Translations under genes and position numbers: made by a program
Assembly: GCA_002840735.1 (NCBI GenBank)
Contig: PHBY01000003.1
Span: 250,734 to 285,583 of the forward strand
Source of the DNA: Chloroflexi bacterium HGW-Chloroflexi-2
GTDB taxonomy: Bacteria; Chloroflexota; Anaerolineae; Anaerolineales; Anaerolineaceae
DNA length: 34,850 nt
Direction: 5' to 3'
Shown here: positions 4,576 to 10,316 of the stretch, in pieces
Layout of the letters: each line of letters opens with the position of its first letter
Numbering within the stretch: the first letter of the stretch is position 1
The notes under the pieces: model-generated
The model's input: the letters and a program-made list of their open reading frames with translations, nothing else
What the model was told of the DNA's origin: nothing
Databases searched by the model: none

Positions 4576-5055
4576 TCAACTGTGTGTTGTTCCATCGGGC
4601 ATGATCGTGCCATACAATGATTTCGCCCGTAGGATCTTATAGTCTGGGACATTGGACCCGGTTAAATCAGCACCAGTGAGATTCGCATTGGTTAGATCGA
4701 CTCCACCTAAATTTGCGTCTATCAAATTTGAGCCTGATAAATCAGCTTCCATCAGGTCTGCTTCTGCCAAATTTGCCTCACGAAAATCTACACCTCGCAA
4801 ATTTGCTCCTCGAAGAGTGGCTTTTCTTAAGTCCGCACCGATAAGATTGGCATTTTCAAAATTACAACCACCCAATTTAGCTTCCGACAAATTCGCCCCT
4901 CGTAAATCAGAGCCACTAAAATTAGCATTTGATAATGTGGATAATGATAAGTTTACTCCCCTCAAATCAGCCCCACTTAAATCTATATAACTTAACCACA
5001 AAGGTTTTTCCTGATTAAGCAACATGTAAATTTCATAACGTGAAAATTCAGACAT
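4576..5055 (-). CDS. Pentapeptide-repeat protein
   Basis: A 159-residue protein. After about 25 residues it is made almost wholly of tandem A(D/N)LxG-type pentapeptides (e.g. GADLRGVNLS, EADLMEADLSG), which fold as a right-handed quadrilateral beta-helix. There is no signal peptide or membrane helix, so it should be cytosolic. Members such as Qnr/MfpA bind DNA gyrase, but most have no known role and nothing here points to a target. The ATG at 5055 follows GAAAGG with 5-base spacing; a GTG two codons earlier is less likely. It has its own TTGACA-17-TATTAA promoter overlapped by a perfect palindrome. Confidence 0.9.
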   Translation of the reverse strand: MSEFSRYEIYMLLNQEKPLWLSYIDLSGADLRGVNLSLSTLSNANFSGSDLRGANLSEAKLGGCNFENANLIGADLRKATLRGANLRGVDFREANLAEADLMEADLSGSNLIDANLGGVDLTNANLTGADLTGSNVPDYKILRAKSLYGTIMPDGTTHS

Positions 5056-5080
5056 AGTCACCTTTCAATGAATTTAATTA

Positions 5081-5251: not shown

Positions 5252-6268
5252 TTAATCCGTCGAAGCACAGCGGAATCCTAGATTTTCGTACCAATATTTA
5301 GGAACAGATTTATATCGCAAAGTAGATCGTATCCACCAGGTTCCATTGCTCCAGGGACCACCACGCCACACATACAGATATCCATCATTTTCCTCACGGC
5401 CATCATCTGGATCATAAGGGTATGGTTTTGGGATAGAACTTGTCCACTCCCAAACATTTCCAGCCATGTCCATGACACCGTAAGGGCTGGCACCATTGGG
5501 ATAACTACCCACAGGAGCAGTATCGGCAAATCCATCATTAAAAGCTGGATTTGCATGGTCTCTCGTGCAATTTACATCACAAAAATTTGCCTTGTCTTCA
5601 GTTATAGGGTCATTTCCCCATGGATATTTTCGACCATCCGTCCCTCTTGCGGCTTTTTCCCATTCCGCTTCCGAGGGTAATCTCCCACCAGCCCACTCAC
5701 AAAAAGCGTTTGCCTGCCACCAATCTACCATGATAACTGGATAATTATCAAACTCCGGATTGCCATAATATTCCTGGCGGGTATTGGAGAAGTTTACCCA
5801 GGGAGCAGTACAAGCTCCATCTGCTACACACAAGGCATAGCGTCCATTGGTCACTTCGTATTTATCAATCCAATACCCATCTAAATAAACAGTATGCATG
5901 GGTACTTCTGGATAGGCTACACCATTATCCAAAGTGTGTTGGGCATCTGTATCTTGTGTGCCCATAATGAATTCGCCCGCAGGAATAAAAATCTGCTCTG
6001 ATTGATCTTTTTCTAAAATCCGAAAATTGGGATCCCCAACTTCAGTTGAGAGCATTGTAGGCTCCAACGTGGGAGTTGCGGGAACTATGGTCTCGGTTGC
6101 CATTAATGTTGGTAAAGCATTTGGTTCTATAATTTCTTCTTTTGTAGGTTCACTGGTACGTGATGGTTGTTGAGGAGGTGCAGTTGTTAATACAGAATTG
6201 CTACATGCACTTAAAATCATTGATAACAGTATTAAAACAAACATCAAAGATTTTATTGAATTCTTCAC
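5252..6268 (-). CDS. Lipoprotein with formylglycine-generating-enzyme-like (SUMF1) domain
   Basis: A 338-residue exported lipoprotein: the signal peptide ends in the lipobox LSAC with the modified Cys at C22. About 65 residues of Pro/Thr/Glu-rich linker follow. From about residue 93 there is a full SUMF1/FGE-sulfatase domain (IPAGEFIMGT, VDWWQANAFCEWAGGRLPSEAEWEKAAR, YPWGN, DMAGNVWEWT, NLGFRCA). The two Cys that bind copper in true formylglycine-generating enzymes, expected in the RGGxW...R segment before NLGFRCA, are absent. So it is more likely a binding or otherwise non-FGE member. The start is GTG, supported by AGGAG 7 bases upstream. No sulfatase gene is nearby. Confidence 0.85.
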   Translation of the reverse strand: MKNSIKSLMFVLILLSMILSACSNSVLTTAPPQQPSRTSEPTKEEIIEPNALPTLMATETIVPATPTLEPTMLSTEVGDPNFRILEKDQSEQIFIPAGEFIMGTQDTDAQHTLDNGVAYPEVPMHTVYLDGYWIDKYEVTNGRYALCVADGACTAPWVNFSNTRQEYYGNPEFDNYPVIMVDWWQANAFCEWAGGRLPSEAEWEKAARGTDGRKYPWGNDPITEDKANFCDVNCTRDHANPAFNDGFADTAPVGSYPNGASPYGVMDMAGNVWEWTSSIPKPYPYDPDDGREENDGYLYVWRGGPWSNGTWWIRSTLRYKSVPKYWYENLGFRCASTD

Positions 6269-6467: not shown

Positions 6468-6520
6468 GATTGAATTAAGGGCTTTTATTTTAATTTAATT
6501 CATTGGGTGGTTGTTATTTG

Positions 6521-8509
6521 ATGAAGAATCTCAAAAAAATTTTATTTCTGGCAATAATCTTCATCTTTATTTCGATTTTTGCATCCTTTAACGTATCTGC
6601 ACAGGAAGAAATCGAAGAACCTGAACGAATCAAATTAGTTGAAAATACATTTACTCAATACACATGGCGGCTGGTGACAAGAACTGGTGTTCCGGTTTGC
6701 ATCGTTGTTATTAATCATGAAGGTTTCCCTACCGGGCAGGAAACATTGGCAGCCTGTAACGAATCCTGGTTAGCACTTTTTCCAACACCCACGGTTGTAG
6801 TCACTGGAACACCAACACCTCAACCAACATCCACTCCCATTGTTATCAATCAATTATGGGAGGATACTTATTGGGTTTTTGTTTCTTCTGAGGAAGTCAC
6901 TCTGGTAACACAAATAACCATTCCTGACATTATCGTCAACATTTATGCACCTGGAATTCCTGTGAGTGCCCCATATGTGGTCATTAAGGCAATCGAACCT
7001 TATTCTGAGTATAAAATTACCAGAATTGCGGGTACGGTTAATGAAGATCCTTTCGAATGTTTCTCTGATCAATGCATTGTACCGCTCATACAAGACGCAC
7101 AGATTCGTTTTTGGGCTGAAAGCAGTTTTGGCGATCAAACCAAAGTGATTACCACCATTGTCAGAATTTTCATCAGTAATGATTACTATAATGTTCGCAT
7201 TACTTCCATCGATCAACTGTTAGGGTTTACGGATTCCTGCCGGGAAATCTGGCGTGAAACTGCTTACGGTGAATCACCTGATTGGGTGGTTTTTCCGGAA
7301 TCACCTGATATGTTAGCCACATTTGATAAATTGCACTATCTGGCAGGAAAATTGATATTAAACAGATTTGTGGATGCATCATCCTGTCCTAATGGTGGAT
7401 TGTTCGCCAATGGTGCACCCAATGCCTGTGGTTTGGAAATTGTTGAAGAAGCGATGTTTGCCTGGCAAAATCGTTTTGACCCGATCATCTGGGCGACTGG
7501 AAGAGAATCAGGTATTTCGCCTGTTTTGATCAAAAGTATTATTGAGCAGGAATCACAATTCTGGCCAGAAAACGCCCGCTACCTGTATGAAGAATATGGG
7601 TTCACACAGATCAACGAGTTGGGTGCTGATGTCGCCTTAAGATGGAATGAAGACTTAAAAAATCAAATATGTTCCGGTTTGCTGTTCAATTGCGATGAAT
7701 CATTTGTAAAAATGAATGCGTTTGAACAGGCAATGTTAAGAGGTGGATTAATCCGATCCATTGATGCCTATTGTCCTGCCTGTGAAAATATGATCAACCT
7801 TGATATTGCTGAACAATCCATAGCCATCACCGGTCAGGTCATTAAGTCTAATTGTTCTCAAGCAAATTATATTGTGAGCGGTCTTGAACTCAAAGCAACC
7901 TTAACCGACATGTGGAAATTCACGATTCTCTCCTACCATGGTGGTTATTATTGTTTACGGAACAGTTTGGAAATAGTAAAGGAAAAAGGACTTGAACCTA
8001 CCTGGGCTAATGTATCTGCAAATCTGGTTTGCCCAAATGCTCGTGATTATGTTGATTCCGTCTGGGAGAATCTGACCAGCTTTCAACTCTACTATGCACC
8101 ACAACCCACACTTTCACCAGAACAACTACAGCCAACTGGCCAAAGTGACCTGGTTCAATTCCCACCCACCGTTACTCCCACACTCACACCAACACCTAAA
8201 ACGTATCTGGCAAGTGGAAAAATTAATGTGTATCTTTACATTGATACAAACATGGATTTTGTTATGGATGAAGATGAGCTGATCGAAAATGCCAACATTT
8301 TGGTTGAATTTGCAAATGGGTCTTCAAAAACAGTCCCTGTTCAGAATGGTGAAGCAATTATTGAGTATGAGAATCAATTCAAAAATTCTGATGTTACCAT
8401 TACTGTTCTTGAAATTTATCAGTCCACACAAGTCAGAATTCCTGAAAGTGGTGAACTTTTTACAATTTTACGAATCCCACCACCTGAATTACCTGGATTA
8501 CTACCGTAA
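6521..8509 (+). CDS. Secreted lytic-transglycosylase-like protein with SdrD-B-like C-terminus
   Basis: A 662-residue exported protein. A signal peptide occupies residues 1-27 (ending near VSA). Then come a Cys-containing N-terminal part, a Thr-Pro linker (TPTPQPTSTP, about residue 105) and a beta-rich region to about residue 250. A goose-lysozyme/SLT-like stretch follows near residues 330-400, with IIEQESQFWP (probable catalytic Glu near residue 340) and YGFTQINELG. A later LSYHGGYYC matches the usual NAG-binding motif. A second Pro/Thr linker leads to a C-terminal domain (INVYLYIDTNMDFVMDEDE) like SdrD-B/Cna-B folds. Several Cys pairs suggest disulfides. It probably cleaves or binds peptidoglycan at the wall. 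The ATG at 6521 is preferred over a TTG at 6503; its ribosome site is weak. It is followed after 15 bases by the pseudo-sortase gene. Confidence 0.75.
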   Translation: MKNLKKILFLAIIFIFISIFASFNVSAQEEIEEPERIKLVENTFTQYTWRLVTRTGVPVCIVVINHEGFPTGQETLAACNESWLALFPTPTVVVTGTPTPQPTSTPIVINQLWEDTYWVFVSSEEVTLVTQITIPDIIVNIYAPGIPVSAPYVVIKAIEPYSEYKITRIAGTVNEDPFECFSDQCIVPLIQDAQIRFWAESSFGDQTKVITTIVRIFISNDYYNVRITSIDQLLGFTDSCREIWRETAYGESPDWVVFPESPDMLATFDKLHYLAGKLILNRFVDASSCPNGGLFANGAPNACGLEIVEEAMFAWQNRFDPIIWATGRESGISPVLIKSIIEQESQFWPENARYLYEEYGFTQINELGADVALRWNEDLKNQICSGLLFNCDESFVKMNAFEQAMLRGGLIRSIDAYCPACENMINLDIAEQSIAITGQVIKSNCSQANYIVSGLELKATLTDMWKFTILSYHGGYYCLRNSLEIVKEKGLEPTWANVSANLVCPNARDYVDSVWENLTSFQLYYAPQPTLSPEQLQPTGQSDLVQFPPTVTPTLTPTPKTYLASGKINVYLYIDTNMDFVMDEDELIENANILVEFANGSSKTVPVQNGEAIIEYENQFKNSDVTITVLEIYQSTQVRIPESGELFTILRIPPPELPGLLP

Positions 8510-8524
8510 AATCAGGAAAAAAAT

Positions 8525-10276
8525 ATGAAGAATAACAAAAAAAAAGATATAAATGAAAACAAAATTGAAAAGGATGATTTAAGCAGAATTGAAGCATCGT
8601 TAAGTTCAAGTAGCGCGAAAGATGAAAATACGAATGATCTCGAATCAAGACTTAACGATATAAAAAAATTAGCTTCAGATTTTTCAATGGATGATGAACC
8701 CCTCGCTGAGGAGAATCTAAATTCTGAAACAGATAGCCTTGATGATGGTGAAGATTATCTGGAGAGATTGTCAGATATTCAAATTGAGAAACCATTTGTG
8801 AGTGACAATGATACAGAAATAGAACTTGATTCCAGATTGAATCAAATTAGTAAAGATCCGGAAAAGTCTAATCAGACAAGTAAAGAAGAAATTAAAAAAA
8901 CCAGTCCATCCCCATTTATTGCACTTCCTGAATTCAAAGATCCAGACGAGTTACGCAAACAAGCAATTAATAAAAAAAGTCCAATTTCGATTGAAGATAT
9001 TGAACATGACGCGGAAGAAATGATGGAACAAAGTCAATCCAATGAGGATTTCCTGGAGCGTGTTAAAACTTCTCTGAGTGAAGGTGAAGATAAATCAGAG
9101 GAACCATCCTCTACTGAATCTGCCAATGTTTTTACATCTTACGATCATGAGTTAGACGATAGTGAATTGATCCAGGAATTGGAACAAGAGATTGTTAATG
9201 CAGATAAAGCCAATAATCCGTTCATTGAAGGTCAGGATACAATTGCATCAGATGATTTCCTATCAAATCTGGATAAAATAACAATCCCTGAAGTCGAATT
9301 GAATCAAAATGAGAATGAATTAAACCAATTAGAAGAATTGGTTGAAAGTGAATTGATGCTTTCATCTTCATCCTGGAAAGACCTATTAGACTCAACAGAT
9401 GATGACAACCAGATGGAAGGCGAAAAACCCTTTGATCTTGATCAAGAACAGTCATTTGATGAATTCTTACAAGAAATTGATTCACAAGAATCTGAAGAAA
9501 AATCGATATACCCCCTTCTTGGAGAGGGTATTAATGAGGATGGTAACACAACAGAAGAAAGCGTTGATCTGGATTCGGATTCTTCCTCAGAAAATGATGG
9601 TGAGATTGATCAGGATGAAGAATCTGTAGAGAGCTTACGAAAATCATTTATCGATGAATTTGATCAGACAGCCTTTGATGAAGAACTCCAAAAAAGCGAA
9701 AAGAAAAATTGGCTCCCGAGAAAAATAGAAGCTTTAAGTAAATGGTTCAAATCATTAAGTTTTGCAGAAAAAATACTGATAGGCTTAAGTTTCGTTATCA
9801 GTCTTGCAGTTGTTGTTTCGATAATATTGGTTGTCACTCAATGGAGTAGTAATAACCGAAAGATTACCAGTCCTCCCCCAGCCATAGAAGCAACCGGTCA
9901 GGATTTAATCTATCCTACTGGTCTCCAATTACCCGGTGGTTGGTTTTTCTTCTTACAAAGAGGAGAAATACAGGACAACAAATGGGAACCGCAAAACGCA
10001 GAATGGTTAGCAAATACCAAACTACGAAGAGTAATCGCAATCCCCTGGTCTAATCAATCGGAGTCTGTGGTGCAATCGCTAACCACACAAGATGAAATCA
10101 GTATTTACATGAACAACAATGACATCATTGTTTATCAAGTCGAGGAAGTTATCCAAATATCACGGGAAAATGTGCGCATTCTTTCAGACACTGAACCTTC
10201 TCTCGTCGTCATCCTGTTTAGAGAAGATAATGAAGATCGCTGGACGATCATCGCGAAACCAAAACCAGCTGAATAA
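8525..10276 (+). CDS. Acidic single-pass membrane protein with a sortase-like outer domain lacking catalytic residues
   Basis: 583 residues. Residues 1 to about 400 are very acidic, Ser/Asp/Glu-rich and probably disordered. They hold four copies of a [DE][DE][FY]Lxx[LVI] motif (near residues 76, 173, 242 and 312). A basic amphipathic stretch leads into one membrane helix at about 415-440 (ILIGLSFVISLAVVVSIILVV). The last 140 residues face outward. The segment running LTTQDEISIYMNNNDIIVYQVEEV, then VRIL and LVVILF, follows the strand pattern of sortases. However, the GHR-like His reads AIPW and the TLxTC Cys reads VILFRE, so catalysis is not expected. The fold call is mine from pattern only. 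AGGA precedes the ATG by 7 bases. Co-transcribed with the transglycosylase-like gene. Confidence 0.7.
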   Translation: MKNNKKKDINENKIEKDDLSRIEASLSSSSAKDENTNDLESRLNDIKKLASDFSMDDEPLAEENLNSETDSLDDGEDYLERLSDIQIEKPFVSDNDTEIELDSRLNQISKDPEKSNQTSKEEIKKTSPSPFIALPEFKDPDELRKQAINKKSPISIEDIEHDAEEMMEQSQSNEDFLERVKTSLSEGEDKSEEPSSTESANVFTSYDHELDDSELIQELEQEIVNADKANNPFIEGQDTIASDDFLSNLDKITIPEVELNQNENELNQLEELVESELMLSSSSWKDLLDSTDDDNQMEGEKPFDLDQEQSFDEFLQEIDSQESEEKSIYPLLGEGINEDGNTTEESVDLDSDSSSENDGEIDQDEESVESLRKSFIDEFDQTAFDEELQKSEKKNWLPRKIEALSKWFKSLSFAEKILIGLSFVISLAVVVSIILVVTQWSSNNRKITSPPPAIEATGQDLIYPTGLQLPGGWFFFLQRGEIQDNKWEPQNAEWLANTKLRRVIAIPWSNQSESVVQSLTTQDEISIYMNNNDIIVYQVEEVIQISRENVRILSDTEPSLVVILFREDNEDRWTIIAKPKPAE

Positions 10277-10283
10277 TAAGATT

Positions 10284-10316
10284 AAAGCTGCTGAGACCCA
10301 TCAGCAGCTTTTTTTT
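10284..10316 (+). terminator. Strong intrinsic terminator
   Basis: AAAGCTGCTGA (10284-10294) and TCAGCAGCTTT (10301-10311) form a perfect 11-bp stem with a 6-base loop, and the U-run continues to 10316. It ends the transglycosylase/pseudo-sortase unit 8 bases after the stop codon. Confidence 0.92.

Follow-up and report, generated by a model that had tools for sequence, protein, structure and literature searches.

Chloroflexota encode a family of sortase-like membrane proteins that lack the catalytic His-Cys pair and accompany secreted proteins with a conserved C-terminal Leu-Pro tail

The closest described relatives of the membrane protein reported here are the sortases of Pfam family PF04203, of which loci L034, L192, L313 and L314 are Chloroflexota examples. 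They share with it a homologous domain, an N-terminal membrane anchor, a kept arginine and alignable positions of the catalytic His and Cys. Unlike these sortases, the family described below (dead sortases) has lost His and Cys, has shortened loops ahead of the His strand and in the Cys-to-Arg stretch, stays under the Pfam cut-off, and is linked to a C-terminal tail rather than to a full sorting signal. LPXTG-type sorting signals, as treated in PMC8361268 and PMC4155245, resemble this tail in that a secreted protein carries a Leu-Pro motif at its C-terminus. The tail differs from them in that the protein ends at the motif, with no hydrophobic stretch, no charged tail and no Thr-Gly scissile bond.

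A dead sortase holding a Leu-Pro peptide has been obtained artificially. According to PMC9520033, Cys-to-Ala sortase A (SrtA) of S. pyogenes binds LPAT peptides, and its Arg216 forms hydrogen bonds with the carbonyl groups of Leu and Pro; substrate binding is, in the view of its authors, the main task of the sortase Arg. As described there, that protein is a laboratory mutant, whereas the dead sortases presented here are a natural family. Neither a natural inactive sortase family nor this tail was found in the literature searched, subscription journals and preprints lying largely outside the search. On the side of the partner protein, SdrD B-like and cellulosome X-module domains are comparable small beta-sandwiches near the C-terminus of surface proteins, from which the partner domain differs by its LP-x-x-[LI]-P tail. 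Pfam SdrD_B matched one partner at E 0.0013 and Foldseek returned 2b59_B at E 3.5e-3, no family cut-off being reached.

The gene pair lies in a window of 34,850 nucleotides (the whole stretch of DNA that was analysed) from the 4.1-Mb genome of an Anaerolineaceae-type Chloroflexota bacterium. This genome contains one copy of the dead-sortase gene and also two genuine sortases in which His, Cys and Arg are all present. The features of the pair are as follows.

6503..8509, plus strand: secreted lytic-transglycosylase-like partner (TTG start at 6503 or ATG at 6521)
8207..8476, plus strand: C-terminal beta-sandwich of the partner, SdrB-like, with a D-x-N...E loop (17 rows align gap-free)
8477..8506, plus strand: C-terminal tail of the partner, PPPELPGLLP-COOH (motif in 17/17 orthologues)
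8525..10276, plus strand: dead-sortase membrane protein of 583 aa (open reading frame)
8525..9778, plus strand: acidic N-terminal arm, residues 1-418 (119 D+E versus 42 K+R)
9779..9835, plus strand: one transmembrane segment at residues 419-437 (hydropathy peaks at 2.97 in a 19-residue stretch)
9887..10264, plus strand: outer domain related to sortases but lacking His and Cys, approximately residues 455-580 (profile comparison, alignment)
10043..10045, plus strand: Pro507 on the catalytic His position (full-length alignment with active sortases)
10217..10219, plus strand: Phe565 on the catalytic Cys position (profile-profile match, full-length alignment)
10238..10240, plus strand: retained Arg572 on the catalytic Arg position (full-length alignment; R in the family column)
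10284..10316, plus strand: terminator-like stem-loop and T run 3' of the dead-sortase gene (11-pair stem, 10284-10311)

The partner stop codon is 15 bases upstream of the dead-sortase start, and promoter-like sites around the two genes are no more frequent than expected by chance. Further upstream of the pair there are an FGE (sulfatase-modifying-factor-like) lipoprotein gene and a pentapeptide-repeat-like gene (5252-6268 and 4576-5061, minus strand).

The initial annotation had placed a sortase-like outer domain with altered His and Cys positions at 9776-10276. The domain indeed lies within this span, which also takes in the transmembrane segment, and its reading as a dead sortase is supported by the profile comparisons and the family-wide loss of the His-Cys pair given below. 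The acidic arm of some 400 residues noticed at the same time is real and conserved in the window family, where complete genes have arms of 405-525 residues with 20-30% acidic residues; the arm is probably cytoplasmic. In 17 measured genes of other families only 20-132 residues precede the transmembrane segment, so the acidic arm appears to be an addition of this family and not part of the core function.

How far is the relation to sortases supported? For the outer part of the window protein, Pfam Sortase was the best match, at a sub-threshold E of 0.054 and 13.7 bits (14.4 bits in a second comparison; the PF04203 gathering score is 26.6), and it did not appear among the matches of the whole 583-residue reading frame. 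Thirteen of 17 homologues matched Pfam Sortase, the best at E 5.7e-4. A single-sequence phmmer search of the PDB with the window protein retrieved nothing relevant. A profile of the 17 homologues put sortase 4d70 first among PDB sequences (E 0.005, unrelated proteins close behind), and with a family profile of 28 rows the six best matches were all sortases, led by 4d70 at E 1.6e-6, if 5hu4, deposited as 'cysteine protease', is counted as one by its rank among them. Profile-profile comparison (hhalign) with 36 Chloroflexota sortases gave a probability of 96.4 (E 1.2e-9, 65 columns), as against 0.34 for the reversed profile and 1.11 for the top of 20 column shuffles. The 16 Anaerolineaceae rows alone still reached 91.8, with controls at 1.14 and 5.71.

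This local match spans the half of the domain with Cys and Arg; the His position rests instead on a full-length alignment with the active sortases L192, L313 and L314 of the same class. There, the catalytic His, Cys and Arg correspond to Pro507, Phe565 and Arg572, the dead proteins are about three residues shorter between Cys and Arg, and the loop before the His strand is missing. Judged by these comparisons, the outer domain (the last 125 or so residues) is homologous to sortases. The NCBIfam models of named sortase classes, including class F, gave no match for the window protein, and the distant member L018 scored 19.8 bits against an NCBIfam class model with a curated score of 166.

Structure prediction was uninformative as to an eight-stranded sortase barrel in this domain. 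The AlphaFold2 model, built from four near-identical rows (the window and L031-L033), had a mean pLDDT of 51. With it, Foldseek gave 0/331 matches at E <= 0.001 and VIA-align a best Z of 4.5, with neither a significant match nor a sortase among the rows shown by either program. No relatives were found in viral_contigs, scanned with two alignments, or in plasmids searched with the G043 protein. Weak homology matches collected early (down to E 1) turned out to be chance matches and were dropped after their reading frames had been read.

Next, the catalytic columns were compared across the family. At E <= 1e-3, 120 distinct rows were obtained; 26 were set aside as real sortases, either because Cys was present with His or a gap or as one of eight loci named by hand, and 94 were kept. 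A score cut yields the same 94/26 split, since the 94 score about 7e-11 or better and the 26 about 4e-7 or worse. The family matches that were read, 30 loci and 40 further regions, are a subset of all matches. The 94 distinct members come from 20 Chloroflexota families, and none of them has His and Cys together. The His column holds P in 60 members, H in 11, E in 9, A in 6, S in 5, and D, N and a gap in one each. In the Cys column L (44) prevails, followed by F (11), V (9), Y (8), M (5), C (4) and others. The Arg column, by comparison, shows R in each of the 92 rows that have a residue there. The domain (131 columns) is devoid of any Cys in 87/94 members, and therefore of a thiol nucleophile.

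All 11 members that keep His belong to one family, f16. At the f16 loci, L097-L099 among them, Cys is absent, the upstream gene is fumarase-like and a tailed partner is encoded elsewhere in the genome. Homologues that keep Cys, a possibility raised by the initial annotation, do exist (4/94, from one genus of another class), though none has His too. At these loci (L093-L096, family f46) Cys is at the catalytic position, Pro stands for His, and the partner ends in TPLPALLP.

The partner genes supply the second half of the argument. In the window, the middle part of the partner resembles SLT (Pfam E 0.039, 14.0 bits, below the cut-off of 21.3), and the Glu of an E[ST]Q[FY]W motif, which we take to be the SLT catalytic Glu, is kept in 14/14 aligned partners. 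Of 101 family genomes, only 17 have a partner match that reaches the C-terminal end; in most others the match breaks off ahead of the final 100 or so residues. The 17 full-length orthologues, picked by full-length similarity and not by their tail, align over 100 columns with no gap, and P-x-[LIV]-P-x-x-[LIM]-P is the very C-terminal end in 17/17. The window partner stops at LPGLLP, and an LPXTG-like motif followed by a hydrophobic stretch and a positive tail is not present. In a model of its C-terminal 100 residues (mean pLDDT 76) strands extend up to residue 90, and the last ten residues form a low-confidence block with a mean pLDDT of 52.

The tail reaches far beyond the orthologues. Among the 85 of 94 dead-sortase genes that are readable upstream (L018 is one of the remaining nine despite a tailed reading frame there), 61, from 13 families including one of another class, follow a product ending in [LIVMFY]P..[LIVMF]P. 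By comparison, 0/21 real sortases with upstream sequence have a tailed product next to them. The 24 dead-sortase genes with no tailed upstream product belong to f16 (15), f24 (5), f22 (3) and f136 (1). In f16 the partner domain is encoded elsewhere in the genome, which led us to reject the idea that these genomes have no partner, and in f24, f136, f145 and f146 it is found about 4-5 kb upstream. Such non-adjacent partners end in P..[LIM]P at 16/18 loci read, e.g. TLPDRIP, APPERIP and QPGLIP, the first motif residue being Gln in the f24-like group (QPGLIP); most of the 18 were found with a profile to which they contributed nothing.

Searched with a tail-less profile, 83/91 reading frames with the partner domain end in P..[LIVM]P, compared with 10/7191 other reading frames, which include spurious frames and, among the ten, one partner fragment. 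The former count is partly circular because partners chosen for their tail had gone into the profile (A6); this circularity does not touch the 17 orthologues or the 18 non-adjacent partners. Exceptions to the tail are APTGSP or LPAGSP in f22, MPGGTP in G621, LPTRLN in G159 and ALRRLP in G461.

All partners share a homologous C-terminal domain, and the tail keeps its exact C-terminal position, residue for residue, across distant partners, while the N-terminal parts vary: they are transglycosylase-like in the window family and consist of PPC domains in f135, where the Pfam cut-off is exceeded, and f23 (weaker), and the G043 partner is a stand-alone domain of 126 aa. Paralogues of the window partner that do not have the C-terminal domain occur in most family genomes (some match in 81/101), many with Pro-rich ends; paralogues of this kind also tend toward a terminal Pro.

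The partner adjoins the dead sortase in 13/13 other family genomes with upstream sequence. Within the genus this says little, because the whole region is syntenic there; among six genomes from outside it, G011 alone has any further window genes (two) near the pair. Where sequence upstream of the dead sortase is missing (G008 and G065), the partner was found near a contig end. Among 147 genomes of the window family, 16 have the dead sortase and 17 the tailed partner, all 16 being within the 17; the remaining one, G095, is 78% complete. Among 396 genomes of the class (E <= 1e-10), 112 have the dead sortase, 108 the partner, 103 both and 279 neither (Fisher p 3e-77, phylogeny ignored). Nine of the 396 have a dead sortase with no detected partner, in six of them with the gene close to a contig start, which is not clearly so in G552, G741 and G797; five have a partner only. 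Co-occurrence and adjacency do not in themselves prove contact between the two proteins.

Since His and Cys are lost, Arg is kept and the neighbouring gene encodes a Leu-Pro C-terminus, the dead sortase is most simply understood as a tail holder. We consider it probable, at roughly 0.7, that it is a non-covalent membrane receptor for the LP-x-x-[LI]-P C-terminus of its partner. The outer domain would be that of a former sortase which no longer cuts and joins peptides and would have retained the groove and, in Arg572, the arginine that holds Leu-Pro. The beta-sandwich of the secreted partner would display a free tail ending in LP-x-x-[LI]-P-COOH, and the dead sortase would grip this tail in the groove with no covalent bond. 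The partner, in the window a lytic-transglycosylase-like protein, would thereby be retained and positioned on the outer side of the membrane. The fixed position of the tail suggests that its free carboxylate is also read by the receptor. The earlier idea that the domain binds peptides resembling sorting signals thus gains strong indirect support, drawn from sequence, in the conserved Leu-Pro tail encoded by the partner gene. Extended to the whole group, the proposal becomes one of enzyme-free sorting, which we favour with somewhat more reserve: Chloroflexota pseudo-sortases would hold varied secreted proteins by LP-x-x-[LI]-P-COOH, with reversible docking in place of covalent anchoring.

Retention of Arg and good conservation of the domain would also be expected if it were still an enzyme that worked through other residues, for example by trimming or transferring the tail. 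This is highly improbable: the columns conserved in at least 60% of members (W, P, G, A, L, V, N, Q, T, D, F and R) offer no alternative conserved nucleophile or base, T and D reaching just 63-74% and not being kept as T or D together in the window, and the tail is the C-terminus of its protein, with neither a hydrophobic stretch nor a charged end to remove. Another explanation takes the genes to be linked merely by descent or expression and the tail to be the structural end of the beta-sandwich, unrelated to the sortase domain. The homology of all partner C-terminal domains does mean that the tail could be inherited, and the region is syntenic throughout the genus. But the tail comes after the last predicted strand, in a part modelled with low confidence, its position is constant to the residue over distant partners, and the pair persists although partner N-terminus and neighbourhood change, even when the two genes are not adjacent. 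We hold a mere linkage of this kind to be improbable.

Secretion genes near some of the pairs raise a different alternative, namely that the two proteins are subunits of an envelope machine, type IV secretion-like in several lineages, in which the sortase domain would be a structural element of the channel and contact the partner via other surfaces, and the tail would be an assembly signal for something else. Genes of VirB4-like ATPases accompany the pair in G043 and G049, two Chloroflexota genomes that belong to other families, with NCBIfam E values of 6.7e-27 (G043; L149:8978-11131, plus strand) and 8e-23 (G049; L148:3348-5477, minus strand), both below the curated cut-offs, and G043 also has a PrgI-like gene (E 5.4e-4, below cut-off); a divergent type IV secretion locus is a possible interpretation of these regions. 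Upstream of L256, L258 and L260 (f24, f136 and f146) we recognized, by reading, a polytopic-looking gene of VirB6/TrbL type, for which Pfam returned nothing in the one case tested. However, secretion-apparatus genes were not observed beside the pair in the window family, and the f16 genes lie apart from each other, so that an apparatus is not obligatory. Nor does an envelope machine explain the fixed C-terminal tail any better. It is an unlikely general explanation, even though the pair may serve a secretion apparatus in some lineages.

If the receptor reading is correct, the dead sortases are a natural pseudoenzyme family derived from sortases, in which recognition was kept and chemistry dropped, and their ligand is a short tag that can be carried on the C-terminus of different proteins. 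This would account for the retention of wall-cutting and other surface proteins at the Chloroflexota membrane and would assign a function to a family beyond the reach of any Pfam or NCBIfam model. Whether the sortase Arg serves binding or catalysis, a matter of debate, could then also be tested in a protein devoid of catalysis.

A possible origin of the family can be pointed out as well. The loci L192, L313 and L314, all of family f136, encode active-looking sortases with full-length matches to the dead-sortase profile, and the ancestor from which the dead family arose may have been close to these proteins.
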